A DNA stretch of 33,101 nt from Tannerella sp. Its GTDB lineage: Bacteria > Bacteroidota > Bacteroidia > Bacteroidales > Tannerellaceae. Location: the NCBI GenBank assembly GCA_031271805.1, contig JAISUX010000132.1:1-33101 (forward strand), written 5' to 3'. The notes beneath the pieces were generated by a model. It had not been told where the DNA came from, did not search any database, and worked only from the letters and a program-made list of their open reading frames with translations. A program made the translations under genes and the position numbers. The stretch's first letter is position 1. Each line of letters begins with the position of its first letter. This document shows, piece by piece, positions 3,070 through 30,807 of this stretch.

Positions 3070-3143
3070 GGCTCCGTGGCTCAACTGAATAGAGCATCTG
3101 ACTACGGATCAGAAGGTTACAGGTTTGAATCCTGTCGGAGTCA
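3070..3143 (+). tRNA. tRNA-Arg (anticodon ACG)
   Basis: A full cloverleaf can be folded by eye. The acceptor stem pairs GGCTCCG (3070-3076) with CGGAGTC (3136-3142), with one G-T pair, and has an A discriminator at 3143. The anticodon stem TCTGA/TCAGA encloses the loop CTACGGA, which puts ACG at 3104-3106. The T arm is ACAGG-TTTGAAT-CCTGT. No CCA is encoded. ACG is normally edited to ICG and reads CGU/CGC/CGA. Confidence 0.95.
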
Positions 3144-3145
3144 CA

Positions 3146-3187: not shown

Positions 3188-6100
3188 TTATTTCAATCCC
3201 CTGTTCTTTAGTAGCGGGTCTATGCTTGGTTCTTTGCCTCGGAAGTTTTTGTACATTTGCATTGCGTCGTCGATGCCACCGGGCGTAAGGATATAATCGC
3301 GGAATTTTGCGGCGGTAGTCCGGTCGAATATATCGCCTGTTTCCTTGTAGGCCTCAAAAGCGTCGGCATCGAGCACCTCCGCCCACATATAACTATAATA
3401 GCCCGCTGTGTAACCTCCGCCCATAGTATGGTTGAAATATGTCGTGCGGTAACGTGGCGGAATCTGGCTTAAGGCGGCGCGGCGGTTCATTGAGTTGGCC
3501 TCGAATTTAACGATGTCGAAATCCTCCGGAATAGCTTTCAGCACGTGATAATCCATGTCGAGATACGAGGCTTGGAGATATTCCGCAGTAGCAAACCCCT
3601 GGCCGTACTTGCTGCCGGCAACGATTTTCCCGACCAAAGCCTCCGGAATCACCTCTCCGGTCTGATAATGTTTGGCATATACCTTCAACACTTCCGGCTC
3701 AAGCACCCAATGCTCCATGACCTGCGACGGCAATTCTACGAAATCGCGCGGCACGCCCGACGTCCCATAGTAATGCACGTCCTTAAAGAGGTTGTGCAAG
3801 CCATGGCCGAACTCGTGGAACATCGTCTCCGCCTCGTCGAGGCTCAGCAGTGCCGGCTGCCCCTCGGAGGGCTTAGTGAAATTGCAAACGATAGTCACTA
3901 TCGGCGCTACACGCTTGCCGTTTTTGTCGTAGCTCTGCGAGCGATAAGTGCCGCACCATGCCCCGCCGCGCTTACTCGGCCGCGGGAAGAAATCCATATA
4001 TACAATCCCGCGATGGCTACCGTCCTCGTTCTTGCACTCAAAAGCGTAAGCATCGGGATGAGGCTTAGGGATATCCTTTATTTCAGTGAAAGTCAGGTGA
4101 TAAAGTCTATTGACGACATAGAAAAGCCCCTGCATCACGTTTTCGAGTTTGAAATAGGGGCGTGTCTCGTTTTCGTCGATATCGAACTTCTCTTTCATCA
4201 CTTTCTCGTTGTAATAACGCCAGTCCCAACCCTTGAGTTCGCCGGCGACGCCTTCCTTGTGCATCATCGCCGTCAGGTCGGCGGCTTCCTGCTTAGCTTT
4301 GGCGAGAGCGGGCGCCCACACCTGGTCGAGCAGGTCGTAAACATTCTGTTCATTCTTAGCCATTCGCTCTTCGAGCGCCATGCCCGCATAGTCATCGAAA
4401 CCCATTAACTTCCCTTTCTCAAGGCGCAAAGTCACGAGTTTGCGCACCACATCCTTGTTGTCAGCATCGTTATTGTTATTGCCGCGCATCAGATAGCCGT
4501 TGAAGATTTTCTCACGGAGCGCACGATTGTCGGCAAACTGCAAGAAAGGCATCACACTTGGATTATGAAGCGTAAAAATCCATTTACCTTCCTGACCGGC
4601 GGCCTTAGCTTCCTCCGCCGCAACGCTGATAAGGCTCTGCGGCAGGCCTGCGAGGTCTTCCTTCCTGTCGATCACAAGTTTGAAGGCGTTTGTTTCCTTC
4701 AGCATATTCTGACTGAAAGTGAGTTGCAGCAATGAGATTTGGCTGTTGAGTTCGCGCAACCTCGCCTGTTTTTCGGCCGAGAGGTTAGCGCCGCTACGGA
4801 CGAAATCCTTATAAGTCTCCTCAACGAGTTTTGCCTGCTCCTTATTGAGATTTGCAGGCTGATGCTCATAGACGTATTTTATCTTCTCAAAGAGCTTTGC
4901 GTTAAGCATAATATCGTCGGAATGTTTCGACATCAACGGCGACAGTTCTTTGTTTAATTCCTGCATCTCGTCGTTAGTATTAGCGCTGTTTTGGCCGCTG
5001 AAAACGGTACGCACATCGCGCAACAAACGCCCGCTTTGGTCGAGCGCAACGATAGTGTTTTCAAAATCGGGCGTAGCCGTATTTGCCGTGATTGCATCTA
5101 TTTCCTTTTGATGATCTTCCATACCTTTCAGCATGGCCGGTTTGTAGTCCTCAAACTTGATTTTGTCGAAAGGCGGCACACCAAACGGCGTCGAATAATC
5201 GGCAAAAAACGGATTTGTTTCATTCATATCAGTCTTGTTTTTTCGTAAATAAACAGTAACAGGCCCCAGAAGTCCGGAGGATTGAAGCGGCGAATCTGAT
5301 TTCCAGGGATTTATCTTAACCCATGTCTTACGCTCCTTTTCCGGAAGATTCAGGTCGCCTATCAAACGGTTCATCCAATTGTTTACCACTTCAATTTCGA
5401 GACTGTTTTCGCCTTCTTTCACTAACTTAGTGATATTCAGGCAATAAGGCGATGTCCACACCCCACCGGCATACTCGCCGTTTATCTTAACTTTAGCCAT
5501 GACCATCACCTTTCCGAGGTCGATATATAGCTGTTTGTCAGCAACTTTATCTATCCTAAAGCTATTCCTGTAAACGGCTGTTCCCGAATAATAGCGGATA
5601 CGTTTATCCGTTGACTTCGACCAGTCTTCGAGGCTGTTCATCGTCACGGTTTCGTTTATGCCGCAAATGGCATTGTCGAACGTGACTTTCCAAGGATTAC
5701 CGATTGTAGTAATTATCTCTTTACCAGGGAAATTAACGGCATTTTTCGTGGGTTTCCCGGCTTTGCGGAAGACGATAAAAGAGCTTTCAAAGGCTTCCAG
5801 GCGCAGTGGCACACCGGTCGTTTTTTTGGTGACGGAAAACTGCTTCAAGTCACGTATTTCGTCGGTCAGGGGATTCCATAATTCGGGAATACGACCTGAG
5901 ACACGGAATAAAGGGTTGATATCTACCGGTTTATCCGATTGATTCGAGACGAAATAGATGTCACCTTCGGGAAGGGCGCGGTGTATAAACAGGATTTCGT
6001 CGTTGTCGGGAACGACGTCGGGGGCGATGTTCAACGCCGAGAAGACGTCTTCGAGCGACTGTCCGTCGGCGAAAACACGGCCTTTACCGACAGTACGGAT

Positions 6101-8383
6101 TTTTTCCGTGCCGTCGCCCCATAATTCCGCTGCCATTGTCTCGATTTCCCTGTCTGCTTCGGGATAGTTCTGCAAGCTCGGCGAGCGTTTGGGGGAGGGG
6201 CCTAAAATCACAAGGCCTTCGTTGACGAGTTCCTTGATTTTAGCGAGCACGGCAGGGCGCATCGTCTCAAGTTGCGGCAACACAAGCACGCTATACGACA
6301 TCCCGTCGGGCAGGGTCAGCCGTCCGTTCTTGATCGTCGCGCGGGTCAGCAGAACTTCGGCGTTCATATAATCGAAAGCATAACCGCGAGGCAGTTCCGG
6401 CGTGCGTACTCCCGTCATTTTGGGCGCATCTTCGCCGATGAAATAAGCGACGTCGGCGACAAAAAGCCCCTGCTGCAACATCAGATTGCAACGTTTGAGG
6501 TATTTGGCGAATACGTCCATCTGGTCGAACCATGTATTCTTGCGGTTGAACTCGTTGCCGAACCATGCGTCAACGCCGGGCGTTAATTCTTCGGCCGGCT
6601 GATGAATATAAACATGCAAAAGCGTAGAGTTGATGCCTTCGGTAAAAAAGCGGTCAATTCGTTGCTTCATTATGTTGGGATAGCGACTGAATACCGGCCC
6701 GCCGCTCGTGCACGATTCTGCCCAGACCTTGCGTTTGCCGTAAGTGTGGGCGCATGAAGCGGCGGCGTGGTTCTCGATATCGCCGAGCGAACCTTCCGAC
6801 CAAAACTCGCCGCCTATCTCGTCCGACTGCCCGCCGTACATCAGAAATTCGCTCGGGAAACCCCAATGGCCGTAGTTTTCAAGCCAGGTAGTCAATCCGT
6901 TGCTGTTGCTTATCTCGCGAAGCCCGCCGACATAATCATAGGCGACACGGTCGGCTATCAATCGACGCAAATCCCAGAGAAAGCGGTCGGACTGGTCTTG
7001 ACTGCCGACGACAACTCCCTGTAACACAGGAAGATACGGCACAGGACTATATCCATAAGCGGATTCAAACTTTTCGATCATGCCATCCGTCCAGTTCAGG
7101 CCTCCCGTTTCGTAGCTGTCTTCGACTATGACCTTGAACGATTTGCGATCGTCGGCAGGTATGCGGCGCAGGATTTCACCGATGAATGCATCAAAATGCG
7201 CGCTGATATGGTCTTTATTTATCTTGTCTATTTCCAGGCCGCTACCCTCTTTCGAGGCGGGTGCGTTGGTAACTTTTGTCGTGCGCATCGCCGTTCGTAC
7301 GACCGTCCAGTCGCCTTCGGGGATGTCCCACGTCAGTACGCCGTCCTTGACTTTATCCGTCAAATCAATGACTTTTGCGGGATCAACGCATAAGTCGGCC
7401 GGCAATTCGGGTTGCTTGTCCCACATATAGTCGTGCCAAAGCGGAAGCGGGGTCTGGAACATCTTGGCAAGCGTTTTTTCGGGATAACGCTCGACTTGCG
7501 GCGCGGTCGAAAACGTCACCTCGGCGGCGCCTTCGCTATTTTTTGTCGTCATCACGAAACGCAAATCCGTTGCTTTCGTTTCCGGCAGGGATATCACAAC
7601 CGGCGCGTAGGGATCAAAACCGACATGAAGCTCAGGATTGCTGCGGTCGATCTCAAATTTCTTCAGCAACCGGTATTGGCCGTTTTCTTTAACGTGTATC
7701 TCGGCATTGGACTTGATGGGGGCGGCGGTCTTAAAGATAAAACTGCGAATAGGCATTTCGCCGACCGGCACGTCCAAAGTCAATATCTCTTCTTTTTTCT
7801 TGGATATTTTCCTGCTAATCAAATAGTTAATATTACGAGATAAAGGATAAGCTATTACCTTTACATCTTCCATGGCATCTTTGGCGACTAAGGGAAGGGC
7901 GATGATTGCGTTCGCGCGAGGACCTTTCAAGGTAATATTCGAGGAAGCGAGGTAACGCATTGATTCTTCGGGCTTTACCCATGGGCCGCCGGACTGGCTC
8001 CAGCCGGGACTGTTGAACATTCCGATTTCAATGCCCAACTCACCGGCCGTTTTCAGCGCCGTATGAGTTATATCCCACCATTCGGGCGAAAAAAGTTTAT
8101 GCTTCTTTATCGGCAAGACGTCCTCGTCAAGGCCGATATTCCCAATGAAGGCGCGGTTGATACCGACCCTCTTCATCGCTTCGAGGTCTTTAACAACCCC
8201 TTCTTTCGAGATATTGTCGGAAATCCAATACCAATACACCCCCAACTGCATACTGTCGGGATTCAAAAAACCTGTTTCAATGCTGTTGAAACGGCTACTT
8301 CCGGCCGAATTGCTTCCCGAATTACAAGAATCGGTCAAAAGCAACGCCGCCGCGATACAAGATAAAAAATAAAATCTTTTCAT
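3188..8383 (-). CDS. GH106-like alpha-L-rhamnosidase fused to M3 peptidyl-dipeptidase Dcp
   Basis: One uninterrupted frame of 1731 codons holds two complete enzymes. Residues 1-20 form a lipoprotein signal (lipobox LTDSC, Cys20). Residues ~35-1046 resemble GH106 rhamnosidases (PF17132): LGVYWYWISDNISKEGV near the start, candidate catalytic Glu425 (DSYETGG) and Glu556 (WAESCTSGG), and a C-terminal beta-sandwich ending SSGLLGPVTVYL. The Glu spacing of 131 is close to that I recall for the GH106 enzyme BT0986. Residues 1053-1731 (679 residues) match cytosolic Dcp in length. They carry the M3 zinc site HEFGH at 1523-1527, a third ligand Glu near 1550 (DFVELPSQ) and the substrate-binding GYTAGYYSY segment. 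I know of no standard protein with this order. The junction contains A_AAA_AAC (5243 down to 5237), and the ATG at 5227-5225 could start Dcp by itself. It may be two genes joined by a one-base change. Confidence 0.85.
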   Translation of the reverse strand: MKRFYFLSCIAAALLLTDSCNSGSNSAGSSRFNSIETGFLNPDSMQLGVYWYWISDNISKEGVVKDLEAMKRVGINRAFIGNIGLDEDVLPIKKHKLFSPEWWDITHTALKTAGELGIEIGMFNSPGWSQSGGPWVKPEESMRYLASSNITLKGPRANAIIALPLVAKDAMEDVKVIAYPLSRNINYLISRKISKKKEEILTLDVPVGEMPIRSFIFKTAAPIKSNAEIHVKENGQYRLLKKFEIDRSNPELHVGFDPYAPVVISLPETKATDLRFVMTTKNSEGAAEVTFSTAPQVERYPEKTLAKMFQTPLPLWHDYMWDKQPELPADLCVDPAKVIDLTDKVKDGVLTWDIPEGDWTVVRTAMRTTKVTNAPASKEGSGLEIDKINKDHISAHFDAFIGEILRRIPADDRKSFKVIVEDSYETGGLNWTDGMIEKFESAYGYSPVPYLPVLQGVVVGSQDQSDRFLWDLRRLIADRVAYDYVGGLREISNSNGLTTWLENYGHWGFPSEFLMYGGQSDEIGGEFWSEGSLGDIENHAAASCAHTYGKRKVWAESCTSGGPVFSRYPNIMKQRIDRFFTEGINSTLLHVYIHQPAEELTPGVDAWFGNEFNRKNTWFDQMDVFAKYLKRCNLMLQQGLFVADVAYFIGEDAPKMTGVRTPELPRGYAFDYMNAEVLLTRATIKNGRLTLPDGMSYSVLVLPQLETMRPAVLAKIKELVNEGLVILGPSPKRSPSLQNYPEADREIETMAAELWGDGTEKIRTVGKGRVFADGQSLEDVFSALNIAPDVVPDNDEILFIHRALPEGDIYFVSNQSDKPVDINPLFRVSGRIPELWNPLTDEIRDLKQFSVTKKTTGVPLRLEAFESSFIVFRKAGKPTKNAVNFPGKEIITTIGNPWKVTFDNAICGINETVTMNSLEDWSKSTDKRIRYYSGTAVYRNSFRIDKVADKQLYIDLGKVMVMAKVKINGEYAGGVWTSPYCLNITKLVKEGENSLEIEVVNNWMNRLIGDLNLPEKERKTWVKINPWKSDSPLQSSGLLGPVTVYLRKNKTDMNETNPFFADYSTPFGVPPFDKIKFEDYKPAMLKGMEDHQKEIDAITANTATPDFENTIVALDQSGRLLRDVRTVFSGQNSANTNDEMQELNKELSPLMSKHSDDIMLNAKLFEKIKYVYEHQPANLNKEQAKLVEETYKDFVRSGANLSAEKQARLRELNSQISLLQLTFSQNMLKETNAFKLVIDRKEDLAGLPQSLISVAAEEAKAAGQEGKWIFTLHNPSVMPFLQFADNRALREKIFNGYLMRGNNNNDADNKDVVRKLVTLRLEKGKLMGFDDYAGMALEERMAKNEQNVYDLLDQVWAPALAKAKQEAADLTAMMHKEGVAGELKGWDWRYYNEKVMKEKFDIDENETRPYFKLENVMQGLFYVVNRLYHLTFTEIKDIPKPHPDAYAFECKNEDGSHRGIVYMDFFPRPSKRGGAWCGTYRSQSYDKNGKRVAPIVTIVCNFTKPSEGQPALLSLDEAETMFHEFGHGLHNLFKDVHYYGTSGVPRDFVELPSQVMEHWVLEPEVLKVYAKHYQTGEVIPEALVGKIVAGSKYGQGFATAEYLQASYLDMDYHVLKAIPEDFDIVKFEANSMNRRAALSQIPPRYRTTYFNHTMGGGYTAGYYSYMWAEVLDADAFEAYKETGDIFDRTTAAKFRDYILTPGGIDDAMQMYKNFRGKEPSIDPLLKNRGLK
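5237..5243 (-). promoter_or_regulatory. Slippery heptamer A_AAA_AAC at the GH106/Dcp junction
   Basis: In the zero frame the codons are CGA AAA AAC (residues 1047-1049), which is an exact X_XXY_YYZ heptamer for -1 slippage. A -1 shift reads CAA GAC and then stops at TGA (5231-5229), one base before the ATG at 5227-5225. Loss of one A instead gives a stop TGA (5226-5224) overlapping that ATG as ATGA. A dedicated downstream stimulator was not identified. Confidence 0.55.
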
Positions 8384-8502: not shown

Positions 8503-11500
8503 TCAATTCAGCGTCCTGACAGTCTCGTTTTGCACCTCTTTCAGAGTGCGGCAAGCGGTTTGGACATCGGGTATATTCTTGATTATGAGGCCACGACGTC
8601 CGGATTGATCGCGGAGAATACAATTTTTAGGATGACGCTGGATATAGGATATGAGGCGGCTAAAGGCTTTGCTTTGGTAATAAGGGCGGTCGTCATCCTT
8701 AGTCAGGTGCAGGTTCATCACGCCTTGTTTCAGGATGATTTTCTCGAAGCCGAGTTGCTTGCCGAGGCGACGCAGTTGGACTACGCGGATCAGTTCGACG
8801 CCTTCGGGGGGAATTTCGCCGAAACGGTCTTTCAACCGAGCCACGAAAGCATCGAGTTTATCGTCGGTCTCAATCTGGTCGAGTTCGCGATAGATACTGA
8901 CGCGCTCGGAATCATTCGGGATATAAGTGGGCGGGAAAAGCAATTCGAGGTCGCTCTCTATGTATGTTTCCCTCACTAATTCACGCTCGTCGTCGTGCGC
9001 CGCAGCATCCTGTTCGGAGGCATAGAGTTCGGCAAACTCTTCGTTTTTGAGTTCAAAGACGGCTTCGTCGAGGATTTTTTGATATGCCTCGTAGCCAAGA
9101 TCGGCGATGAAACCGCTCTGTTCGGCACCGAGCATGTTGCCGGCGCCGCGGATGTCAAGGTCTTGCATCGCGATGTACATTCCACTGCCGAGGTCGGCGA
9201 AATTGCCTATTGCCTGCAGGCGGCGGCGCGATTCGGGAGTGAGGGTCGAGAGGGGCGGAGCAAGCAGGTAACAGAAGGCCTTGCGATTGCTGCGACCCAC
9301 GCGGCCGCGCAGCTGGTGCAGCTCCGAAAGGCCGAACTGATGCGCATTGTTGATAATTATCGTGTTAGCGTTGGGCACGTCGATGCCGTTCTCAATGATT
9401 GTTGTCGCAATCAGGACGTCATACTCGTAATTCACAAAGTCGATAACCGTTTTCTCGAGTTTTTCCGGATCCATCTGCCCGTGGCCGACGGCAACGCGGG
9501 CGCCGGAAACTTCGCGGCGAATAAGCGCCTCTATCTCATAAATATTCTGGATACGATTGTTGATGATGAAAACCTGCCCGTTGCGGCTCATCTCAAATTC
9601 TATGGCTTCGCGGATAATGTCGGCATTGAAACGCTCAATCTCGGTCTGTATAGGATAGCGGTTGGGCGGCGGAGTATGGATATTACTCAGGTCGCGAGCG
9701 CCCATAAGCGAGAATTGAAGCGTACGCGGGATAGGCGTGGCGGTCATCGTCAAGGTATCGACATTAGTCTTAAGTTGTCGTAATTTTTCCTTTACCGAGA
9801 CGCCGAATTTCTGTTCTTCATCAATGACCAACAGACCTAAGTCTTTGAATACCACATCTTTACTCACTATACGATGAGTGCCTATGAGGATATTTAGCTC
9901 GCCTGTTTTAAGGCGTCCGAGGATATCTTTTATCTCCGAGGTCGTGCGTGCGCGGCTTATATAATCTATCGTACAAGGGAAATCTTTCAGTCGGTCGGTA
10001 AACGTGCGGTAGTGCTGGAAAGCGAGAACGGTTGTCGGAACAAGTACGGCGACCTGCTTATTGTCGGTCACGGCCTTGAAAGCCGCGCGAATCGAAACTT
10101 CGGTCTTGCCGAAACCCACATCACCGCAGATAAGGCGATCCATAGGCCGCTCGCTTTCCATATCGGCCTTGACCTCGTTGGTAGCCCTGAGCTGGTCGGG
10201 CGTATCTTCATAGATGAAGCTCGCCTCAAGCTCGTCCTGCAGGAAACTGTCGGGGCTGTAGGCGAAGCCTTTTTCGTTCTTACGCTGCGAATAGAGCTTG
10301 ATAAGGTCACGCGCGATGTCCTTGACCTTTTTTTTCGTGCGGTCTTTCATCCGTTCCCATGCGCCGGTGCCGAGCTTGCTCAAAGCGGGCATCTCGCCGT
10401 CTTTGCCTTTGTATTTCGAGAGTTTGTGAAGCGAATGGATGCTGACGTAAACTATGTCGTTGTTCTTATAAATGAGTTTGACGGATTCCTGGAGATGGTC
10501 TCCGACCTGGGTGCGCACGAGGCCGCCGAACTGCCCGATGCCATGGTCGATATGGACGATGTAATCGCCTGTGGTAAACTGGTTTAACTCTTTCAGCGTG
10601 AGAGTGATCTTGCCGCTTCGCGCCTTGTCGCTCTTGAGGTTGTATTTGTGGAAACGTCCGAAAATCTGGTGGTCGGTAAAAAGGCACAATTTCAACGATT
10701 TATCCGAAAAACCTTCGTGCAGGGCATGATTGATAGGGGTAAAAACGATGTCGTCGCCGCGGTCGGCGAAGATATCGCGGATACGCTCGGCCTGTTTCGC
10801 GCTGTCGGTCAATAAATATATCTTGTAGCCGTCAACGATAAACTGCTTGAATGATTCGGCGACAAGGTCGAAATTCTTGTTATACAACGGTTGCGGCAAT
10901 GTGTCGAAGGTGATCACTGCGTCATCGCAATGACGTATAGGACTGAATGTCAACGTCTTAAATCCTGCAGCAACCGCCGAAAAATCCTCCGTTTTAACAA
11001 GTTTTTTCTGCATAGCGGCAACATCCTTAAACCCCTCATCGTCCTTATTTACGGGCGATTCTTGCCACAATCCCTCTATGCGCTCGCGACACCATACGAG
11101 GTCGTCGGCTATCAAAAGCGAGTACGCCGGCAGCAGTTCCAACAGCGACGAATCGGACTCGTTATGCCGGCTGATCTCCGGAATCACGTGTATTTCGTCG
11201 AGTTTGTCTTTCGACAGTTGCGTCTCGACGTCGAAACTTCTGATCGTTTCCACCTCGTTGCCGAAAAAATCGACGCGAAACGGGTATTCGCTCGAAAACG
11301 AAAAAATATCGACTATGCTTCCACGCATCGCGTACTGCCCCGGCTCATAGACATAATCGGTCAATTCAAAGCCATAGCTGTCGAGCACGTCAGAGACAAA
11401 CATCGGGTCGAGCTTCTCGCCCTTGTGAATAGTTAAAGTGTTCTCCGACAGCACTTCGCGCGAGAGCACTTTTTCGGCAAGCGCATCGGGATAGGTCACA

Positions 11501-11856
11501 ATGATACACGACGGCGCCTCTTCCTGCAGCAAACCGAGTATCTCGGTGCGCAAAATCTCATTCGCCGGGTCGATGTGTCCGTATTTGATATGTCGATGAT
11601 AAGATGACGGAAAGAAATAAACTCCCTTACCGTCAGCGAGTTGCATAAGGTCGTTATAGAAATATCCCGCATCCTCAAGGTCGTTGAGCAGACACAGGAA
11701 CAGCCCTCCGCGCATATCGAAAAGCGTCGCCGTAGCAACCGCTTTCGCAGAGCCTGTAAGCCCCGACAAAAGGATATTCGTCGTCGCCGGCTCTTCGAGC
11801 AAGGCCGCCGCAGCGCGGATTTTAGTGTGGGTAGTATATAAAGACGGAATTTCCAA
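8503..11856 (-). CDS. mfd: Transcription-repair coupling factor Mfd
   Basis: Mfd pushes stalled RNA polymerase off damaged DNA and recruits UvrA for nucleotide excision repair. The 1117-residue protein is complete. It has an N-terminal UvrB-like region, a CarD-like RNA-polymerase-interacting domain starting near GDYIVHIDHGIGQF (residue 430), and a Walker A GDVGFGKTE at 578-586. A DEEQ box follows at 679-682, then TATPIPRTLQ, a helicase C motif LRGRVGRSNRKAFCYLL, and the C-terminal TRCF domain from about ESDLELLFPPTYIPNDSERV. The start is a TTG at 11856-11854; the next Met is near residue 48, well inside the conserved N-terminus. The TTG follows the stop of the UDP-glucuronate decarboxylase gene by two bases, which suggests translational coupling. 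Confidence 0.96.
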   Translation of the reverse strand: MEIPSLYTTHTKIRAAAALLEEPATTNILLSGLTGSAKAVATATLFDMRGGLFLCLLNDLEDAGYFYNDLMQLADGKGVYFFPSSYHRHIKYGHIDPANEILRTEILGLLQEEAPSCIIVTYPDALAEKVLSREVLSENTLTIHKGEKLDPMFVSDVLDSYGFELTDYVYEPGQYAMRGSIVDIFSFSSEYPFRVDFFGNEVETIRSFDVETQLSKDKLDEIHVIPEISRHNESDSSLLELLPAYSLLIADDLVWCRERIEGLWQESPVNKDDEGFKDVAAMQKKLVKTEDFSAVAAGFKTLTFSPIRHCDDAVITFDTLPQPLYNKNFDLVAESFKQFIVDGYKIYLLTDSAKQAERIRDIFADRGDDIVFTPINHALHEGFSDKSLKLCLFTDHQIFGRFHKYNLKSDKARSGKITLTLKELNQFTTGDYIVHIDHGIGQFGGLVRTQVGDHLQESVKLIYKNNDIVYVSIHSLHKLSKYKGKDGEMPALSKLGTGAWERMKDRTKKKVKDIARDLIKLYSQRKNEKGFAYSPDSFLQDELEASFIYEDTPDQLRATNEVKADMESERPMDRLICGDVGFGKTEVSIRAAFKAVTDNKQVAVLVPTTVLAFQHYRTFTDRLKDFPCTIDYISRARTTSEIKDILGRLKTGELNILIGTHRIVSKDVVFKDLGLLVIDEEQKFGVSVKEKLRQLKTNVDTLTMTATPIPRTLQFSLMGARDLSNIHTPPPNRYPIQTEIERFNADIIREAIEFEMSRNGQVFIINNRIQNIYEIEALIRREVSGARVAVGHGQMDPEKLEKTVIDFVNYEYDVLIATTIIENGIDVPNANTIIINNAHQFGLSELHQLRGRVGRSNRKAFCYLLAPPLSTLTPESRRRLQAIGNFADLGSGMYIAMQDLDIRGAGNMLGAEQSGFIADLGYEAYQKILDEAVFELKNEEFAELYASEQDAAAHDDERELVRETYIESDLELLFPPTYIPNDSERVSIYRELDQIETDDKLDAFVARLKDRFGEIPPEGVELIRVVQLRRLGKQLGFEKIILKQGVMNLHLTKDDDRPYYQSKAFSRLISYIQRHPKNCILRDQSGRRGLIIKNIPDVQTACRTLKEVQNETVRTLN

Positions 11857-11858: not shown

Positions 11859-12806
11859 TTAGCCGATTGCAGATAGTTTTTCTTCAAAATAAGAAATCGT
11901 TTTCTTAAGTCCTTCTTCGAGTTTGACGACAGGCTGCCATCCGTCGAGTTTCTCGAAAGCGAGCGAAATGTCGGGTTTGCGCTGCTTAGGGTCGTCCTGC
12001 GGCAAAGGCCGGAAAATGATTTTTGAGCGCGAGCCGGTCAAGCGTATGACCTCATTTGCTAATTCGAGCATCGAAAATTCGCCCGGATTGCCGATATTGA
12101 CCGGCCCCGTGAAGTCATCGCCGGTCTTCATCATACGCACCATTCCCTCGATGAGATCGTCGATAAACTGGAAACTGCGCGTCTGCAGACCGTTGCCGTA
12201 AATCGTTATATCCTTGCCTGTCAGCGCCTGTACGATGAAATTGGATACGACCCTGCCGTCATTCCTGTCCATTCGCGGCCCGTAAGTATTAAAAATCCTG
12301 ATAATCTTGATATTAATCCCATGCTGCCGGTGATAATCCATACAAAGCGTCTCGGCGGCGCGTTTTCCTTCATCGTAACACGAGCGGATACCGATAGGAT
12401 TGACGTTGCCCCAATACGATTCGACCTGCGGATGAATTGTCGGGTCGCCGTAAACCTCACTCGTCGATGCGTGCAGTATCGTCGCCCCTACCCTCTTCGC
12501 CATTCCAAGCATGTTCAACGCGCCGTAGATCGACGTCTTGAGCGTCTTAATCGGGTTATACTGATAATTTACGGGCGATGCAGGACAGGCCAGATTGTAA
12601 ATCCTGTCCACCTCGGCATAAAAAGGCGTCGTCACATCGTGCCTGACAAGCTCGAAACGGTCGTTGCCAAGCAGATGACGTACATTGTCCTTACTGCCGG
12701 TGAAATAATTGTCGAGGCAGATGACATCACATCCGTCTCCTATAAGTCTGTCGCACAGGTGCGACCCGATAAATCCGGCGCCGCCGGTTACCAATACTCT
12801 TTCCAT
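11859..12806 (-). CDS. UDP-glucuronate decarboxylase (UDP-xylose synthase)
   Basis: A cytosolic short-chain dehydrogenase/reductase-fold enzyme that converts UDP-glucuronate to UDP-xylose, a precursor for surface glycans. The 315-residue length fits the bacterial family. Visible features are the NAD-binding motif [10 protein letters not shown] (residues 7-16), [13 protein letters not shown], the [11 protein letters not shown] segment, the catalytic YxxxK within [11 protein letters not shown], and [10 protein letters not shown]. The frame is open to 12902, but the conserved N-terminus MERVLVTGG begins at the ATG at 12806-12804, just downstream of a promoter element. Its stop is two bases before the mfd start, so it forms an operon with mfd. 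UDP-4-keto-pentose synthase or a dTDP-glucose dehydratase are less likely given the [11 protein letters not shown] motif. Confidence 0.92.
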
Positions 12807-12837
12807 ATCCGATATGTCGATAATTCTTTTGACGATG

Positions 12838-12845
12838 CAAAAGTA
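12838..12845 (-). promoter_or_regulatory. -7 element of the decarboxylase-mfd operon
   Basis: The minus strand reads TACTTTTG, matching TAnnTTTG, about 31 bases before the ATG at 12806. The -33 region is poor, but a perfect small palindrome CCGAT-A-ATCGG (12857-12867) lies in the upstream part and could bind a regulator. Confidence 0.6.
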
Positions 12846-12952
12846 ATAAAATTTATCCGATAATCGGCATATTCTTAAAACGGCAATCCACCTCGTTAGC
12901 ATTATTTATGCTTTTTTATAAAAAAAAAAAAACAGGCCTGCAAAATTATATT

Positions 12953-14462: not shown

Positions 14463-14585
14463 GCTCGTTCAATTATGGATTTTTAGTGAGAGCTATGAAG
14501 TACACACTAATACCAAGTCCGTAATTATGAAGGATTTAGAGGCTTTTATTGTTTTTTTTAACTAATCATTTTATTAAAATTGCTT

Positions 14586-17500
14586 ATGAAAAATGAACTT
14601 TTTCGTATTCTGAGGATTTCCGCATTCTGTTTATTCGTATGGATAAGCGCTGTAAGTGCGGAAAGACCTTATTCAAGGTCGTCCGGAAGGACGGATCAGG
14701 TCGCAGAACTTCAGCAGCAAAAGCAAAGGGTGACGGGTACCGTGTTCGATGAGACCGGAGAGCCGTTGCCCGGAGCAAACATTGTTGAAGTCGGTACTAC
14801 TAACGGAACGCTTACCGACATGGACGGTAAGTTTACGCTTGAGGTGGGTGAAAAAGCCACATTGCGTATTTCCTATGTAGGCTACAACACGCAGGAGGTT
14901 ACGATCAAGGGCAGCGCGCCTTTGGTAATCAACCTTGAAGAAAGTGCGGTTCAGACGGAGGAAGTAGTCGTTGTAGGCTACGGTATCCAGAAGAAAGAGA
15001 GTGTTGTGGCATCTATTGTTCAGGCAGGTGAAAAAGAATTGCGTCGCACGGGTAACTCAGGCAACCTGACGGAAGCATTGGCAGGACAGTTGCCCGGTCT
15101 TGTAACGCTGACTTCTTCGGGCGAGCCGGGCGGTACTACCGTCGGTAACAGTTCGACCTCGCTGTATATTCGCGGTCAGAACACCTGGAACGGCGGTTCG
15201 CCGCTTATCTTGGTTGACGGAGTGGAGCGCAGCATGAACAACATCGACGTAAACGAGGTTGCCAACATCTCTATCCTTAAGGATGCTTCGGCAACCGCCG
15301 TGTTCGGCGTCAAGGGCGCTAACGGCGTCGTCCTTATTACTACCAAACGAGGCGAATCGGGAAAAACCAAGCTCAATTTCAACTACACCTCGACAGGTAC
15401 AATGATCTCGAAGCTGCCGGAAATAATGGATTCTTACGAATCGTTAGTCAGGCTCAACGAAAGTATTGAGCGCGAAGTAGCGCAGAACTCACCGTCGTGG
15501 AACGACATCTATCCTTATGAGATAGTATCGCGCTACCGCAAGCCGCAGTCTAAGGAATATTCTATGATATATCCTAATATCGACTGGACTAACGAGCTAT
15601 TCACTACTATGGGATTCTCGCAACGCGCTACGATGAGCGCACAGGGAGGCAGCAACAACGTCAAATATTACGGTATGGTCGCCTATCTGCATGAAGGAGA
15701 CCAGTTTCGGAAGATGGACAACGGCAAGGGCTACGACCCTAACTACAACTACGACCGTTTCAATTTCCGAAGCAACATCGACTTCGACCTGACGAGCACA
15801 ACCAAACTGTCGGTTGACCTCTCCGGTTTCTATTCGCTCAAGAATACAAACTATAACAATGAAGGCTCTACCGGACGCGCTGACTGGTGGATGTGGTCGG
15901 CTGCCTATCAGTTGGCTCCCGACTTGATGTATCCCTATTTCGAGGACGAAGGTCTCTGGGGTGCATACCAGGAGGGCGGCAATAACACCGTCAATCCGTT
16001 AGCCGTAGTCTATAACATCGGTTTGCGCCAGCAACGCCAGACACAGTTGAACTCGAATTTCACCCTCAGCCAGAAACTCGACTTCATTACTCCCGGTTTG
16101 GCGGCAAGCGTATCGCTATTCTACGACAACGTGGTACGTTCCGAAGGCGGTATTTACGATGTCAACAACCACGTAAGGCCTAACGAAGAAGCCAACAACG
16201 TGGCATACAAGCAAATATATCCCCTATTATATGAAGGCCCCGACCAGGATCCGTCGGAATACACCGTTTACCTGCCGCAAAGTACCGGCGAGTACGACTG
16301 GATTGTACGTCCCTGGACCACACGTGCGGAAACCATCGGCGCTTACAACTTCGATTCGTCGATACCCGTGCGCCGCCGGTTGATGTATCAGTTCCAGCTG
16401 AACTACGCCCGCCGCTTCGGGTTGCACAACGTAGGAGTTATGGGCGTTATGAAACGCGAGACGCAGGCTTACGGCAATATGTTCCCCAACTATCGCGAAG
16501 ACTGGGTAGGGCGTCTTACTTACGACTTCGATTCACGTTACCTGCTCGAAGTGAACGCCGCATACAACGGATCCGAAAAGTTCGGTCCCGACTATCGTTT
16601 CGAACTCTTCCCCTCGCTTGCTTTGGGCTATTATATATCTAATGAAAAGTTCTGGAAGGTGCCGTTTATCGACCGTCTGAAACTGCGTTACAGCAAGGGA
16701 TGGGTCGGTGATGATACCGGCGGCACGCGCTGGTCGTATATCTCACAGATGGCATACGGCGGACGTACACGCTTAGCGACCGCAACCGACGGTTACAGCC
16801 CTTACTACTGGTACCGCGAGACCGTAGTCGGCAACCCCGACCTGAGATGGGAATCGGCCGTTAAAGACAACTACGGCTTAGAAATAGGATTCTTCAAGAG
16901 CCAGTTGGGAATTAATTTCGACTATTTCACCGAAGACCGTACCGACATCATCATCGCAGGCGGCAGCCGCGCTATCCCGACTTTCTACGGGACAACGCCG
17001 CCGGACGCCAACCTGGGACATGTCAAATCAAAAGGTTTCGAGATTGAAGTCAATGTCAATAAACGCCTTACGAGAGACTTGGATTTATGGTCGAAATTGG
17101 CTATCACGCATAACCAAAACACGGTTATTTTCCGCGACGACCCGCCTCTGCAGTATCCTAACCTGAAAGCCGCAGGCTTCCAGATCGGACAGACCAAGAG
17201 CCTGAAAGCTACTGGGTTCTACAACAGTTGGGACGATGTCTATGCTTCCGTTCCGACCGAAAGCAACGACCTTACGAAAATACCGGGTTACTACAACCTG
17301 CTCGACTATACGGCCGACGGTATGATTAAGAGTAGTGAAGACGTCGTGCCGATAGGCTATTCCGAGGTGCCGCAGAATACGGCCGCATTTACGCTTGGCC
17401 TCAATTACAAGAGTTTCAGCTTTATGGCGCAGCTTTATGGAGTGAACAATGCAACCCGCGTTATCAGTTTTAACAACTTTATAAACACCACTCATACGGT

Positions 17501-17840
17501 TTACGGACATGCCGCCGATTACTGGACAAAAGATAATCAGGACGCAACCTCGTTCCTGCCGCGATGGAGAACTTCGGGCGAGAACATCGGCGATTACTTC
17601 GTTTATGACGCATCATACCTGCGTCTGAGAATGGTCGAATTAGGTTATTCTTTGGATAAAGTGCCATGGATCAGGAAGATCGGCATCGAAAATATGCGTA
17701 TCTTCCTTAACGGCAACAACCTGTTTTTCTGGTCTGATCTTCCCGACGACCGCGAAACAACCTACGACGGCGGCTCGGCGGCACAAGGAACATATCCTAC
17801 TATGAAACGTTTTAATATAGGAATAGACATAACTTTTTAA
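14586..17840 (+). CDS. SusC/RagA-family TonB-dependent glycan transporter 1
   Basis: An outer-membrane beta-barrel that imports oligosaccharides using TonB energy, with the lipoprotein encoded next as its lid. The 1084-residue protein has a signal peptide (MKNELFRILRISAFCLFVWISAVSA) and a carboxypeptidase-D-like domain from about residue 49 (VTGTVFDETGEPLPGANI). A TonB-box-type segment EEVVVVGYG follows near residues 125-133, then a plug domain with LYIRGQNTW, LILVDGVERSMNNI and ILKDASATAVFGVKGANGVV. The rest is barrel strands ending in an aromatic residue (NIGIDITF). The ATG at 14586 is preferred over a TTG two codons upstream. SusD1 follows after 12 bases. Substrate inferred from the locus: an acidic glycan. 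Confidence 0.95.
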   Translation: MKNELFRILRISAFCLFVWISAVSAERPYSRSSGRTDQVAELQQQKQRVTGTVFDETGEPLPGANIVEVGTTNGTLTDMDGKFTLEVGEKATLRISYVGYNTQEVTIKGSAPLVINLEESAVQTEEVVVVGYGIQKKESVVASIVQAGEKELRRTGNSGNLTEALAGQLPGLVTLTSSGEPGGTTVGNSSTSLYIRGQNTWNGGSPLILVDGVERSMNNIDVNEVANISILKDASATAVFGVKGANGVVLITTKRGESGKTKLNFNYTSTGTMISKLPEIMDSYESLVRLNESIEREVAQNSPSWNDIYPYEIVSRYRKPQSKEYSMIYPNIDWTNELFTTMGFSQRATMSAQGGSNNVKYYGMVAYLHEGDQFRKMDNGKGYDPNYNYDRFNFRSNIDFDLTSTTKLSVDLSGFYSLKNTNYNNEGSTGRADWWMWSAAYQLAPDLMYPYFEDEGLWGAYQEGGNNTVNPLAVVYNIGLRQQRQTQLNSNFTLSQKLDFITPGLAASVSLFYDNVVRSEGGIYDVNNHVRPNEEANNVAYKQIYPLLYEGPDQDPSEYTVYLPQSTGEYDWIVRPWTTRAETIGAYNFDSSIPVRRRLMYQFQLNYARRFGLHNVGVMGVMKRETQAYGNMFPNYREDWVGRLTYDFDSRYLLEVNAAYNGSEKFGPDYRFELFPSLALGYYISNEKFWKVPFIDRLKLRYSKGWVGDDTGGTRWSYISQMAYGGRTRLATATDGYSPYYWYRETVVGNPDLRWESAVKDNYGLEIGFFKSQLGINFDYFTEDRTDIIIAGGSRAIPTFYGTTPPDANLGHVKSKGFEIEVNVNKRLTRDLDLWSKLAITHNQNTVIFRDDPPLQYPNLKAAGFQIGQTKSLKATGFYNSWDDVYASVPTESNDLTKIPGYYNLLDYTADGMIKSSEDVVPIGYSEVPQNTAAFTLGLNYKSFSFMAQLYGVNNATRVISFNNFINTTHTVYGHAADYWTKDNQDATSFLPRWRTSGENIGDYFVYDASYLRLRMVELGYSLDKVPWIRKIGIENMRIFLNGNNLFFWSDLPDDRETTYDGGSAAQGTYPTMKRFNIGIDITF

Positions 17841-17852
17841 ACAGTAATCAAT

Positions 17853-19649
17853 ATGAAGACAATCAAATATTTATTAAGCATATACCTGATAGCAGTATTA
17901 GGGATAAGTATGACTTCCTGTGAAGATTACTTGGAAAAAACTCCGGCATCGGATATCAGCGATAAAGACGCTTTCGGCAACTTTACCAGTTTCCAGGGTT
18001 TTATAGAATTGCTGTACAACTGTATCGTTGACCCCGACAAGGGCGGCGCCTGGAACAATCACCTCTTTGCGGATGAAAATGTCGGACCTTCGCCCTATCC
18101 TTTTGACCAGGGTAATTATTGGAGTAATTCGGGTTATCTGTTCGGCTCGTTGAATCCTACCAGCACAAACAGCCGCGACAAGCGTCTGTGGGAAAATGCG
18201 TGGTGGGCAATACGCGAAGCCAACCTTGCACTTGAAAAATTAGAAGAAGAAGGGCTGTTCAACGGTACCGACGAAGAGCGTAATCTTATTAAGGGACAGG
18301 CGTTGTTCCTCCGCGGATGGTTCTATTTCGATATCTGCCGCTACTGGGGCGGTATGCCATACGTGGACAAAGTGATAGGGCCTGCAGACGATATGTTCAC
18401 CGAAGAATTTAATCGCCTGAACTTCCGCGAGACGGCTCTGCGCATGGTGGAAGATTTCCGCGCGGCAGCCAACCTTTTGCCCGACCATTGGGATAAGTGC
18501 GGACCTGGGCAAACCACCTTGGGCAACAACAGTGACCGCATCAATAAGTTCCATTGCTTGGCGTATATGGGTAAGGCCTATCTTTTTGCCGCCAGCCCCA
18601 TGATAAACGAAGAGGCCACAGGCAACAACTCTTTCGACCCCGAACTGTGCGCCAAGGCGGCACAGGCGTTCGGCGAACTGCTGACACTGCGCGACAATAC
18701 GAATATCTATTCTTTGCAGACATGGGACACATGGACGGATATCTTCTGGCGTTACAGCTACCTGCGCCCGGGAGGTACGGAATGTATCATGGTGCCTATT
18801 ATATTCGACCGCGGACGTGTTCGCTGGTCAACGACAGCCGCTATGGTGCCTTCATCGCTCGGATTGAACTCCGGCTCGTCGGCCGACGTAGCTACGCACA
18901 ATTTCGTCAAGAATTATGCTATGGCTAACGGTCTGCCTATCGACGACCCCGAATCGGGTTATAACGACCAGGATCCCTGGACGAATCGCGAACCGCGTTT
19001 CTATAAGGATATCCTGTATGACGGATGCCAGATCTGGCAGGCTGCGGATATAAACCAGTATGCACAGCTATACAACGGCGGTTACCATCGCAACACCATC
19101 AATCCTGCCAGCGCAAGCGGTTATTACTACAAACGCTATGCACCCATGGGACCAGGTTTCTCGGCATCTATGGCCAACCAGTTGCAGGCTTACATCCCCT
19201 ATATGCGTCTGTCGGATGTCTATCTTATGTACGCCGAGGCAGTGAACTTCATGACGGGTGGCGGTCCGACCGCCAAAGCATCGAACTACTCGATGACCGC
19301 CGTCGATGCGCTCAACATGATACGTACACGCGGACAGATACCCGAACTGACGCCTAAATATTATGCCAACAAGGACGTCTTCTTTGAAGAGATCGTGCGC
19401 GAACGCGCCGTTGAGATGGCTTTCGAGGGTCAGCGCTTCGACGACCTGCGTCGCTGGAACCGCAACTACGACCCGCGTTACATCTATAAGACCGCCGTCG
19501 ATTTCGACCGTGGTCCGGACGGCAAACCCGAAAACGTCAGAGAACGTGTCATTCTTACACGGGCGGTCGATAAAAAACACAATTGGCTGCCTATAATGAC
19601 CAAATATACAACGCAGTTTGCAGGATTCCCGCAAAATCCGGGTTGGTAA
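17853..19649 (+). CDS. SusD/RagB-family glycan-binding lipoprotein 1
   Basis: A 598-residue surface lipoprotein that captures oligosaccharides and covers the SusC barrel. The signal peptide ends in the lipobox MTSC with Cys23. The SusD N-terminal region runs EDYLEKTPASDISDKDAFGN. TPR-like stretches follow (LRGWFYFDICRYWGGMPYVD), then the C-terminal RagB signature LSDVYLMYAEAVNF, IRERAVEMAFEGQRFDDLRRW (as VRERAVEMAFEG here) and a terminal NPGW. All are usual for this family, as is the length. It follows SusC1 by 12 bases. Ligand unknown. Confidence 0.95.
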   Translation: MKTIKYLLSIYLIAVLGISMTSCEDYLEKTPASDISDKDAFGNFTSFQGFIELLYNCIVDPDKGGAWNNHLFADENVGPSPYPFDQGNYWSNSGYLFGSLNPTSTNSRDKRLWENAWWAIREANLALEKLEEEGLFNGTDEERNLIKGQALFLRGWFYFDICRYWGGMPYVDKVIGPADDMFTEEFNRLNFRETALRMVEDFRAAANLLPDHWDKCGPGQTTLGNNSDRINKFHCLAYMGKAYLFAASPMINEEATGNNSFDPELCAKAAQAFGELLTLRDNTNIYSLQTWDTWTDIFWRYSYLRPGGTECIMVPIIFDRGRVRWSTTAAMVPSSLGLNSGSSADVATHNFVKNYAMANGLPIDDPESGYNDQDPWTNREPRFYKDILYDGCQIWQAADINQYAQLYNGGYHRNTINPASASGYYYKRYAPMGPGFSASMANQLQAYIPYMRLSDVYLMYAEAVNFMTGGGPTAKASNYSMTAVDALNMIRTRGQIPELTPKYYANKDVFFEEIVRERAVEMAFEGQRFDDLRRWNRNYDPRYIYKTAVDFDRGPDGKPENVRERVILTRAVDKKHNWLPIMTKYTTQFAGFPQNPGW

Positions 19650-19677
19650 TTATTTAATAATCTGAAATTTTTGATAT

Positions 19678-22600
19678 ATGAAGAAAAATATAATATTCCT
19701 CATCACAGCGTTAGTTTTTTCGGTCATTCTGCCCGGAGAACTGACAGCTCAGAGTAGAAACCGGGGTCAGAGTAGTAACCAGGCGCAGAGTAGAAACCAG
19801 GCGCAGACTGTAACGATAACATCAAAGGTTCTTGATGAAGCGGGACAGCCTGTAGCAGACGCAGAGTTATTCAGCGATAATGCATACGCTCGTACCGATG
19901 CGGATGGTAATTTCACCCTGAAGATAAGTCCCAACGCTAAGATATTAGTCGAAGCGGTGGGATATGAAAAGATGACTTTGACCGGCAGCGAGATTGCCGA
20001 ACCGGTTAAACTCGGCGCTTCGCCACTGTTGTACGGCGACAAAGATCTCGTAGAGCTTCCCTTCCGCGAAGTGAAAGCGGGCGATGTTGTCGGCGCCGCC
20101 AACGGCTACAGCGTGAAAGACATCAGCGCATACGACAACACCATAATGCTTAGCGGCATCATGAGCGGTCGCGGCATAGGTATGCTCGGCGGCTCCAATA
20201 TCCGCGGTCTGGGCGTCAGCCTCGACGTAGGCGCTATCACAGGCACCAACACCGGTACGGCAATGGTTGTGGTTGACGGTATGCCTCGCGACATCAACGG
20301 CATCCGACTCTCCGACATCGAAAGCATAACCATCCTGCGCGACGTCAATTCATCAATACTCTACGGCAGCGCAGCGCTCAACGGCGTTATCATGGTTAAG
20401 ACCAAACGCGGACAGGCGCTTAAGAAAACTTCAAATTTCACCGTAAATTACGGAGTTTCAATACCGCGCGAAACATCTATCCCCGAATATCTCGGCTCGG
20501 CCGAATACATGGAATGGTTCAACAAAGCCCGCGCCATGGAAGGCCTGACGCCTACTTACAGCGAGACGCAGATAAATAATTTCCGCACGGGTAACAAATA
20601 TCATTATCCCGATGTCGATTATTATTCAAGCGAATACCTGAAGTCGATGAAGAACAGTTTCGACCTCGACGCCGAATTTTCAGGAGGTAATGAAAACGCT
20701 CGTTACTATGCCAATATGGGATGGAATTCAGCTAACAGCATCTTGAACTTCGGTAACGGCAAAGACGCCCGCGCCAACAACTTCAATGTACGCGGCAATA
20801 TTGACCTGAAAATCAATAGCTGGATTAGAACCGCCGTTGACGTTACCGGTCTGTTTTACGACTCCAAAGGCCAGAGAGGCAGCTTCTGGAGCCAGTCAGC
20901 TACGGTACGCCCGTTCGAGTTTACGCCGCTGATACCTATCTCCATGGTTAAGCCCGGCAGCAATGCCGAGACAATGGCAAACGCCCGCAAAAGAGATGTT
21001 GACGGCCTGTACCTGCTCGGCGGTACAACCGCTTATGCAACAAGCGGTATCAACGACGTCTATGCCGCAGGTACGGATAATTCTATCTGGCGCGTGTTCT
21101 CGTTCAATAACCGTATTGATGTTGACCTCGACTTCATTACTCCGGGTCTTTCGTTCAATACCAATCTCAGTTTCGACTACTATCTGGCTTATAACCAGCA
21201 GACTCCCGAAGGCTACTCTACCTACGAACCAACAGCATGGGACGGCGATATGATTACGAACTTCACACAACGCGGTATGGATACCTCCCCGGCTTCGCAA
21301 AATGTCGAAAGCCGTTATTTCCGCCGCCGCATGGGATTCTATGGAATGTTCAGCTACGACCGCACTTTCGACGACATTCACCATGTTACCGGAACGTTCC
21401 TCGGTTACGGCACGACTTTCAAGGACAACGACGGCTCGTACTCGGATTATCAGGGCGTAAAAAACTCGCATCTCGGACTTCAGTTAGGATATATCTATAA
21501 CAGGAAGTATATGGTCGATTTCAGCAGCGCCTTGGTGAACTCGGTGAAACTGCCTACAAACACCAAAATAGGATTCGCTCCTTCCGTAGCCCTCGCATGG
21601 GTGGCAAGTAACGAAGAAGGCTTCAACGCTCCGGATTTCCTCAATTACCTGAAGTTCAAAGCATCGGCAGGCATCCTGAAATCGGATATCGCTGTCGGCG
21701 ACTACTTCTACTACGACAACCGCTGGACTACTTCTGGCAGTTACAACTGGAACGAAGCCGGCAGAAGCCGTTCGGGAGTGATCTCAAGCTGGTTGCAGAA
21801 TCCAAATCTCGGTTATCCCTCGCGCAAAGAAATAAGCGCCGGTTTCCAATCCTTGCTGTTCAACAACACCATTGGGTTTGAAGCCAACTATTTCTATGAT
21901 ATCTACGACGGCCTCGTGGTTCGTCCGAGTATTGAATATCCGAGTTACTATACCGACTTTGTGCCCTACGAAAACTATGAGAAGGATTCTTACAACGGAT
22001 TTGAAGCCGGACTTAATATCGATAAAAAAGTCGGCGACTGGGGCTTCTATGCCGGTCTGAACGTGCTTTATTCCGTATCTAAGAGATTGAAAGTCAGCGA
22101 ATACTATGCCGATGCCTATCAGTATCGCAAAGGTTACGGCAAGGATGCTACTTTCGGCCTCGAAGCTATCGGATTTTTCAAGGACGAAGCCGATATAGCC
22201 TCCAGTCCAAGCCAGACTTACGGCACCGTGCTTCCGGGCGACATCAAGTATAAAGACCAGAACAACGACGGCGTGATCAACGCCCAGGACGAGGTCTTTC
22301 TGCGTCGCTGGCAGGCTCCGTGGTCGCAAGGTGTCGAACTGCGCCTTTCGTACAAAGACTTCACCCTGTTCGTGATCGGCAACGGAGAGCAGGGCGCCAA
22401 GTATTTCCGCGAAAGCACATATTACTGGATGGATGCAAACGACAAATATTCCGTTCTGGCACGCGAATCGTGGACGCCCGAAACGGCTTCCACAGCCAAG
22501 TACCCGCGTATATCATCGGTAGCTAACAGCAACAACCTCCGGCGCTCGTCGTTCTGGCTCTACAGCAACGACTTCTTCAATATCCGCCGCGTTCAGCTGA

Positions 22601-22773
22601 ACTACAGCGTACCGAAATATATATGCAATTACATGTTTATGAAAGGCTTGGATATATGCCTCAACGCTACCGACTTAGTACAGTTCGCAGCTAACCTGCG
22701 CGATCGCGACCTCGTAGTCGGAGCCGAGCCTTACTATCGCACTTATACAGTTACTCTAAAAGCTAAATTTTAA
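19678..22773 (+). CDS. SusC/RagA-family TonB-dependent glycan transporter 2
   Basis: A 1031-residue outer-membrane transporter, the second of two in the operon. It has a signal peptide ending near LTA (residue ~25) followed by an unusual Gln/Asn/Ser-rich tail of six-residue repeats (QSRNRG, QSSNQA, QSRNQA). Then comes a carboxypeptidase-D-like domain (SKVLDEAGQPVADAELFSDN). The plug follows, with VVDGMPRDINGI, IESITILRDVNSSILYGSAA and LNGVIMVKTKRG. There is no EEVVVVGYG box as in SusC1; instead the linker reads LVELPFREVKAGDVVGA, a variant seen in one SusC subgroup. The barrel ends TVTLKAKF. It starts 28 bases after SusD1 and is followed by SusD2 after four bases. Confidence 0.94.
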   Translation: MKKNIIFLITALVFSVILPGELTAQSRNRGQSSNQAQSRNQAQTVTITSKVLDEAGQPVADAELFSDNAYARTDADGNFTLKISPNAKILVEAVGYEKMTLTGSEIAEPVKLGASPLLYGDKDLVELPFREVKAGDVVGAANGYSVKDISAYDNTIMLSGIMSGRGIGMLGGSNIRGLGVSLDVGAITGTNTGTAMVVVDGMPRDINGIRLSDIESITILRDVNSSILYGSAALNGVIMVKTKRGQALKKTSNFTVNYGVSIPRETSIPEYLGSAEYMEWFNKARAMEGLTPTYSETQINNFRTGNKYHYPDVDYYSSEYLKSMKNSFDLDAEFSGGNENARYYANMGWNSANSILNFGNGKDARANNFNVRGNIDLKINSWIRTAVDVTGLFYDSKGQRGSFWSQSATVRPFEFTPLIPISMVKPGSNAETMANARKRDVDGLYLLGGTTAYATSGINDVYAAGTDNSIWRVFSFNNRIDVDLDFITPGLSFNTNLSFDYYLAYNQQTPEGYSTYEPTAWDGDMITNFTQRGMDTSPASQNVESRYFRRRMGFYGMFSYDRTFDDIHHVTGTFLGYGTTFKDNDGSYSDYQGVKNSHLGLQLGYIYNRKYMVDFSSALVNSVKLPTNTKIGFAPSVALAWVASNEEGFNAPDFLNYLKFKASAGILKSDIAVGDYFYYDNRWTTSGSYNWNEAGRSRSGVISSWLQNPNLGYPSRKEISAGFQSLLFNNTIGFEANYFYDIYDGLVVRPSIEYPSYYTDFVPYENYEKDSYNGFEAGLNIDKKVGDWGFYAGLNVLYSVSKRLKVSEYYADAYQYRKGYGKDATFGLEAIGFFKDEADIASSPSQTYGTVLPGDIKYKDQNNDGVINAQDEVFLRRWQAPWSQGVELRLSYKDFTLFVIGNGEQGAKYFRESTYYWMDANDKYSVLARESWTPETASTAKYPRISSVANSNNLRRSSFWLYSNDFFNIRRVQLNYSVPKYICNYMFMKGLDICLNATDLVQFAANLRDRDLVVGAEPYYRTYTVTLKAKF
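19750..19803 (+). repeat. 18-bp tandem repeat, three copies, inside SusC2
   Basis: Units at 19750-19767, 19768-19785 and 19786-19803 all begin CAGAGTAG and encode QSRNRG, QSSNQA and QSRNQA. The unit length is a multiple of three, so copy-number change would keep the frame. The repeat lies right after the signal peptide. Confidence 0.85.
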
Positions 22774-22777
22774 ATGT

Positions 22778-24538: not shown

Positions 24539-24569
24539 TTTAGTATTAATTTAAAATTCATAACAGATT

Positions 24570-25547: not shown

Positions 25548-25566
25548 ACAGCATCGTCTTATTTTT

Positions 25567-25602
25567 AAAGATAGTCTCTCCCCGCGAGAGGCTATCTTTT
25601 TT
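25567..25602 (+). terminator. Intrinsic terminator closing the import operon
   Basis: AAAGATAG (25567-25574) pairs with CTATCTTT (25592-25599). After one T-G pair, CTCTC (25576-25580) pairs with GAGAG (25586-25590), leaving the loop CCCGC. A T-run continues to 25602. It begins 20 bases after the DUF1735 gene. Confidence 0.88.
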
Positions 25603-30804: not shown

Positions 30805-30807
30805 ACC

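Follow-up and report, generated by a model that had tools for sequence, protein, structure and literature searches.

The minus strand of the contig analysed here (33,101 nucleotides in its full length, below called the window) carries a 1731-residue open reading frame in which a GH106 α-L-rhamnosidase is followed by an M3 peptidyl-dipeptidase (Dcp). We consider it very likely that this is a genuine in-frame gene fusion, generated by a deletion that joined an exported GH106 enzyme to mature Dcp, so that the GH106 signal now exports Dcp. This reading is directly supported by the open frame itself, the presence of both domains with their catalytic residues, the signal peptides of the relatives' Dcp, the in-frame similarity at the seam and the occurrence of each gene beside mfd in some relatives. 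A glycosidase would then replace the signal peptide of its neighbour right where the mature peptidase begins; provided that the chain is stable, a rhamnosidase and a dipeptide-releasing peptidase would be combined in a single periplasmic protein. The fusion is known from one draft genome (86% complete, 138 contigs), which its fragmentation and completeness mark as a probable MAG.

Domain organization of the fused frame

The GH106 part and then the Dcp part read through as one frame from 8383 to 3188 of the minus strand, and no N is present anywhere in the window. The frame and its parts are:

3188–8383, minus strand: fusion ORF, 1731 aa, GH106 α-L-rhamnosidase plus M3 peptidyl-dipeptidase (Dcp) (ORF translation, profile matches)
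8324–8383, minus strand: GH106 N-terminal signal peptide, MKRFYFLSCIAAALLLTDSC (by eye, hydropathy 2.68)
5846–8260, minus strand: GH106 catalytic part, residues 42–846 (Pfam PF17132, E 5.9e-219)
5252–5701, minus strand: GH106 C-terminal jelly-roll domain, residues 895–1044 (NCBIfam NF045579 at 895–1012)
3191–5227, minus strand: Dcp part, residues 1053–1731 (NF007624 at 1053–1730)
3803–3817, minus strand: HEFGH zinc motif of the M3 domain, residues 1523–1527 (alignment, residues checked)

The signal peptide shows a hydrophobic stretch and a lipobox-like Cys, both recognized by eye and hydropathy without a predictor. The product would be a single exported two-enzyme chain with a probable lipid anchor, for which both enzyme activities are predicted from the sequence. 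PF17132 scores 729.7 bits over the GH106 catalytic part against a cut-off of 29, which assigns it to GH106. In an alignment to 5mqm (positions counted by hand, residues checked), E425 and E556 align with E461 and E593 of BT0986, given as the catalytic acid and the base, respectively, in PMC6828813. The jelly-roll domain is complete, to its customary end GLLGPV. The likeness to the GH106 structures of BT0986 (PDB 5MQM/5MQN/5MWK) and PDB 6Q2F, which we take to be RHA-P, thus covers the catalytic and jelly-roll parts up to residue 1044–1045, including the acid and base of BT0986, whereas the C-terminus of the fusion runs on into the peptidase with no stop.

The M3 domain (PF01432) comprises residues 1282–1729, with 401.3 bits against a cut-off of 27. 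As in E. coli Dcp (1Y79) and K-26 dipeptidyl carboxypeptidase (5L43), the whole domain is present from NPFF to the C-terminus, and HEFGH is followed downstream by E1550, the candidate third ligand, which together make up the HEXXH plus downstream Glu of M3 enzymes; we presume that HEFGH and E1550 are the zinc ligands. The NCBIfam Dcp equivalog model (NF007624) yields 627.8 bits, below its cut-off of 944 bits; judged by these profiles, the part is a Dcp-like M3 enzyme, and we make no claim that it belongs with E. coli Dcp in one equivalog. In an AlphaFold model of residues 845–1731 (alignment A1, 49 rows), the pLDDT is mostly >90 over the Dcp part but <50 at model residues 1–120 and 129–210 (jelly roll, linker), perhaps owing to misalignment of the GH106 and Dcp rows in one mixed alignment; we regard the model as uninformative about the seam. 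The same genome, G000, carries a second M3 peptidase gene (G000:C53:20438-21796) with its own signal-peptide-like start and 40% identity to the fused Dcp, and both M3 types are present in several genomes of the genus.

The seam and the separate Dcp of relatives

In the separate Dcp of relatives, the frame extends upstream of the position that corresponds to the seam Met and encodes a signal peptide there, which closely precedes the NPF with which the domain begins in all of them. Among 28 distinct Dcp N-termini at ≥65% identity, a hydropathy rule recognizes a signal peptide in 26, and the two that it misses (L008 and L016) have one by eye. Over all distinct N-termini the rule yields 43 of 51; the six further misses, all at <50% identity, are L101, cut by the contig end, L102, L108 and L110, with ≤8 residues upstream, L103, with no clear signal peptide, and L107, which has a hydrophobic stretch but no Met where the rule requires it. 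By eye, the signals are mostly of the lipoprotein type, with signal-peptidase-I types in G004, G006, G007, G008, G014 and G032, the six closest relatives with full loci, and in G035, which completes the seven closest. Unlike these separate Dcp of the genus, the fused Dcp has no signal peptide of its own, and its N-terminus is joined to GH106.

The initial annotation had called the ATG at the seam the Dcp ATG. This label is wrong, as the Dcp of the closest relatives begins 27–28 codons further upstream, with a signal peptide, and the equivalent of M1053 is an internal Met in all seven of them; most other Dcp of the genus have no Met at that position. In an alignment with six relatives, KNKTD-MNETNPFF of the fusion matches sequences such as AEGNKTETD-MNDRNPFF, located after the signal peptide. 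When the seven residues before the Met were compared with the linkers of the six relatives by a scoring scheme of our own choice, the fused frame reached a mean of 14.7, and the other two frames of the seam DNA 6.2 and 5.7. None of 1579 control heptapeptides taken before internal Mets reached a mean of 14.7, nor did any of the 25 K/N-rich ones among the controls; the best single score was reached by 6 of the 1579, in a control set from which linkers of the relatives themselves had not been cleared. What is left of mature Dcp in the fusion amounts to only ~5 residues. Because the fused frame gives a good match and the two others give poor ones, the present frame, A-tract included, agrees with the Dcp frame of the relatives. 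On the other side of the seam, GH106 relatives end 4 to 7 residues past GLLGPV (GLIGPV in L026) in nine of ten cases, and L024 ends 12 past.

The seam reads CGA AAA AAC AAG ACT GAT ATG AAT on the minus strand, with the ATG at 5227–5225, and holds the following elements:

5228–5251, minus strand: junction, YLR (from the GH106 side or new) plus KNKTD (remnant of the Dcp mature N-terminus) (comparison with relatives)
5237–5243, minus strand: A_AAA_AAC heptamer in −1 phase (sequence)
5229–5231, minus strand: TGA of the −1 frame (sequence)
5224–5226, minus strand: TGA of the +1 frame, as ATGA (sequence)

The initial description of these elements holds. The heptamer at 5243–5237 stands in the exact X_XXY_YYZ phase for −1 slippage, the −1 frame closes at TGA 5231–5229, one base 5' of the ATG, the loss of one A (the +1 frame) leads to TGA 5226–5224 in an ATGA overlap, and the stretch before the ATG is A-rich. 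As a yardstick for both elements, we used 91 ORFs with 56,774 codons in total, taken from the window and from 19 loci, of which 18 belong to related genomes and one to the same genome. In-phase A_AAA_AAC occurs 26 times in 23 of the 91 ORFs, where codon shuffling would give 13.4, and 82 of 1335 internal in-frame ATGs (6%) have a stop in each of the other frames no more than 9 nt away. Because both elements are common in this set, the heptamer and the stops alone are ordinary, while the fusion is not. With about double the number given by codon shuffling, the motif is also not avoided in these ORFs. We therefore favour the view that the slippery stretch is a relic of the joining and not a gene-control switch. 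It also calls for caution, since joining can by itself leave a heptamer flanked by stops where two genes meet.

Gene order and alternative explanations

The genes around the fusion are:

8503–11856, minus strand: mfd (transcription-repair coupling factor), upstream neighbour of the fusion
11859–12902, minus strand: NAD-dependent epimerase, upstream of mfd here and in G004, G006 and G019
3070–3144, plus strand: tRNA-Arg(acg), convergent, downstream of dcp

Epimerase and mfd are followed by GH106 in G004 and G019 and by dcp in G006; in G035, mfd is followed by dcp, and here the order is mfd–GH106::dcp. Out of 30 mfd loci examined (from 36 genomes with a match), GH106 comes next in two (G019 and the present genome) and dcp in two, and the remaining 26 show neither gene within the sequence examined, which is <800 bases in nine of them; the mfd–GH106 order of G004 comes from a separate comparison outside this count. 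GH106 of G004 ends at a TAA of its own, with dcp on another contig; in G019 the contig stops at the end of GH106, and no close dcp was found in that genome. GH106 and dcp as adjacent yet separate genes were not seen in any relative examined. The tRNA-Arg(acg) lies 43 bases from dcp here and 1.3–2 kb downstream of dcp in G004 and G007, that is, in 2 of 11 scanned loci of this dcp type, some with little downstream sequence. In the mfd tree the present genome groups with G024, G031, G038 and G040 (92/93, moderate), apart from the genomes of the same gene order. Two further features of these loci are that the match to mfd of G004 falls into two pieces, as though by an interruption or a faulty assembly, just upstream of its GH106 (L149:1666-4987), and that the mfd-dcp spacer of G035 (L155) contains, by eye, a near-perfect direct repeat of about 45–50 bases ending near the dcp start.

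We propose that an exported GH106 gene and an exported dcp were once adjacent downstream of mfd. With the stop codon of GH106, the intervening spacer and the codons for the Dcp signal peptide lost by deletion, the last GH106 residues would have come to lie in frame with the mature N-terminus of Dcp. The GH106 signal peptide would then send the 1731-residue chain with both enzymes to the periplasm, probably as a lipoprotein. Because each enzyme carries a signal peptide when encoded separately, fusing them would not alter where either one normally resides and may be no more than tolerated; a common substrate for the two enzymes is possible.

The initial annotation had offered, besides a fusion of two formerly separate genes, which our data bear out, a normal gene pair joined by a one-base indel in the A-tract. 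The latter origin is disfavoured by the relatives' signal peptide upstream of the ATG and by the pre-ATG residues, which match mature Dcp in the present frame. The corresponding technical explanation, an A-tract that is off by one base in the assembly, would turn the locus into two overlapping genes, with GH106 closing at the ATGA or at the other TGA and Dcp starting from ATG 1053 without a signal peptide. A single draft genome, a six-base homopolymer and the stops of both other frames at the ATG speak for such an error, yet the agreement of KNKTD with mature Dcp speaks for the frame in the assembly, and the error would produce a signal-less Dcp, unlike the 28 separate N-termini at ≥65% identity described above (26 by the rule, two by eye). 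Moreover, if the assembly is a short-read one, a six-base run is seldom miscalled. We thus regard a sequence error as very unlikely. In the frame as it stands, no in-frame stop separates GH106 and Dcp, as an overlapping gene pair with coupled translation would have. An assembly chimera of two unrelated contigs might be suspected for one draft genome; it is barely credible and was rejected on synteny, since GH106 and dcp each adjoin mfd in one relative or another and the tRNA-Arg beside dcp is found again in two of them. We would also argue that a random join is unlikely to hit the domain end, the domain start and the frame together.

The remaining alternatives concern additional products of the locus. 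The initial annotation had suggested that the locus could make a glycosidase alone and Dcp alone besides the fusion. Programmed −1 frameshifting at A_AAA_AAC would yield GH106 alone in a set ratio. The heptamer phase is exact, the −1 stop follows two codons on, and PMC4066793 considers it very likely that bacterial IS elements make use of the heptamer, citing a proven IS case for which no stimulator is established; the same paper lists it among the low-efficiency heptamers in E. coli, which argues against a switch here, as does the in-phase motif already present in a quarter of the ORF set (23/91). Pseudoknot-free folding gave no stimulatory structure downstream of the heptamer (z = 0.39, equalled by 126 of 200 shuffles). 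With no second fusion of this kind listed, no conservation indicates selection for frameshifting; likewise, the proposed check for a conserved heptamer and phase in relatives found no second fusion among the matches listed in the genomes searched and hence no second heptamer at such a seam. The seam thus shares an in-phase A_AAA_AAN heptamer with dnaX and IS-type −1 frameshift genes, but differs from them in that no stimulator was found and no conservation seen, and in that its zero frame is the relatives' Dcp frame. On conservation, motif strength and structure we rejected programmed frameshifting, which appears most improbable, with the IS cases standing against this rejection.

Internal initiation at ATG 1053, finally, is compatible with the gene fusion and would add a signal-less cytosolic Dcp beside it. 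The start context of M1053 is equalled or beaten by only 3.2% of 1335 internal ATGs and lies above 36% of 90 presumed starts, and the RNA following the A-tract is not unusually structured. Adenines occupy −6, −12 and −13, three of the four upstream positions (−3, −6, −12 and −13) at which adenine is a positive determinant of initiation in F. johnsoniae according to PMC6847099, whereas −3 is a G, and linkers rich in lysine and asparagine are A-rich regardless. The seam-equivalent Met is kept in 7/7 closest relatives, and its context is above half of the presumed starts in three of six relatives tested; yet the signal-peptide start outscores the internal Met in all six, the Met is absent in most other Dcp of the genus, and its invariance is unremarkable because many nearby columns are invariant in these seven sequences. 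Altogether, we judge a second start rather unlikely. It is quite unlikely that in this clade the ATG opening mature Dcp also works as a second start, one that the fusion kept, so that one gene supplies an exported and a cytosolic peptidase; if true, this would give a single gene two locations of the peptidase.

Occurrence of the fusion and further observations

Seam DNA matched in 37 of the 41 genomes of the genus, and none of the matches listed in the other 36 spans the seam. The M3 matches of the genus number 54, in 34/41 genomes; the frame of the fusion has 1736 codons and all others have ≤906. With a 223-aa protein as query (seam at position 141), end-to-end cover among the matches listed was obtained in the family sample (123 genomes, 122 matching) for the present genome alone, with 504.7 bits against 219.7 for the next. 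The next best scores were 180.8 bits in the order (393 genomes, 20 matching) and 160.3 bits in the class (395 genomes, 3 matching). A second GH106–M3 fusion was therefore not found among the matches listed in these overlapping samples of 123, 393 and 395 genomes, where a divergent one could be missed in the latter two because these were searched at E ≤ 1e-40. In the family sample, some GH106 matches extend ≤25 residues beyond the seam, but across stop codons, and some Dcp matches begin ≤32 residues before it, in frames of about 710–730 codons. Since no other is listed in the three samples, the fusion is recent or rare, and it may be neutral or deleterious; the pairing of a rhamnosidase with a dipeptide-releasing peptidase is likewise listed in no other genome of these samples. 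Judged by title, none of the papers listed in the literature deals with a GH106–M3 fusion in Bacteroidetes or with Dcp localisation.

Other in-frame fusions of GH106 came to light. A GH9 cellulase-like::GH106 fusion is shared by two loci of the same genus, L151:2965-8229 (plus strand, 1754 aa) and L152:247-5343 (minus strand, 1698 aa), in which GH106 has no signal peptide of its own, on the same principle as here. Two enzymes are joined and the downstream partner lacks its own signal peptide in either arrangement; the GH9::GH106 fusions differ in that both partners are glycosidases, GH106 lies downstream and two genomes carry them. In another genome of the order, L196:56-5008 (plus strand) is a 1650-aa frame with a GH78-like part (by eye) and a GH106 without its own signal peptide.

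Elsewhere in the window, 14580–32916 holds a polysaccharide utilisation locus with two SusC-like/SusD pairs, a DUF5627/BT_3987-like protein, two weak heparinase II/III-like matches, GH88 and PL8, which suggests an acidic glycan or a glycosaminoglycan-type substrate; the habitat of the relatives is presumably termite guts.
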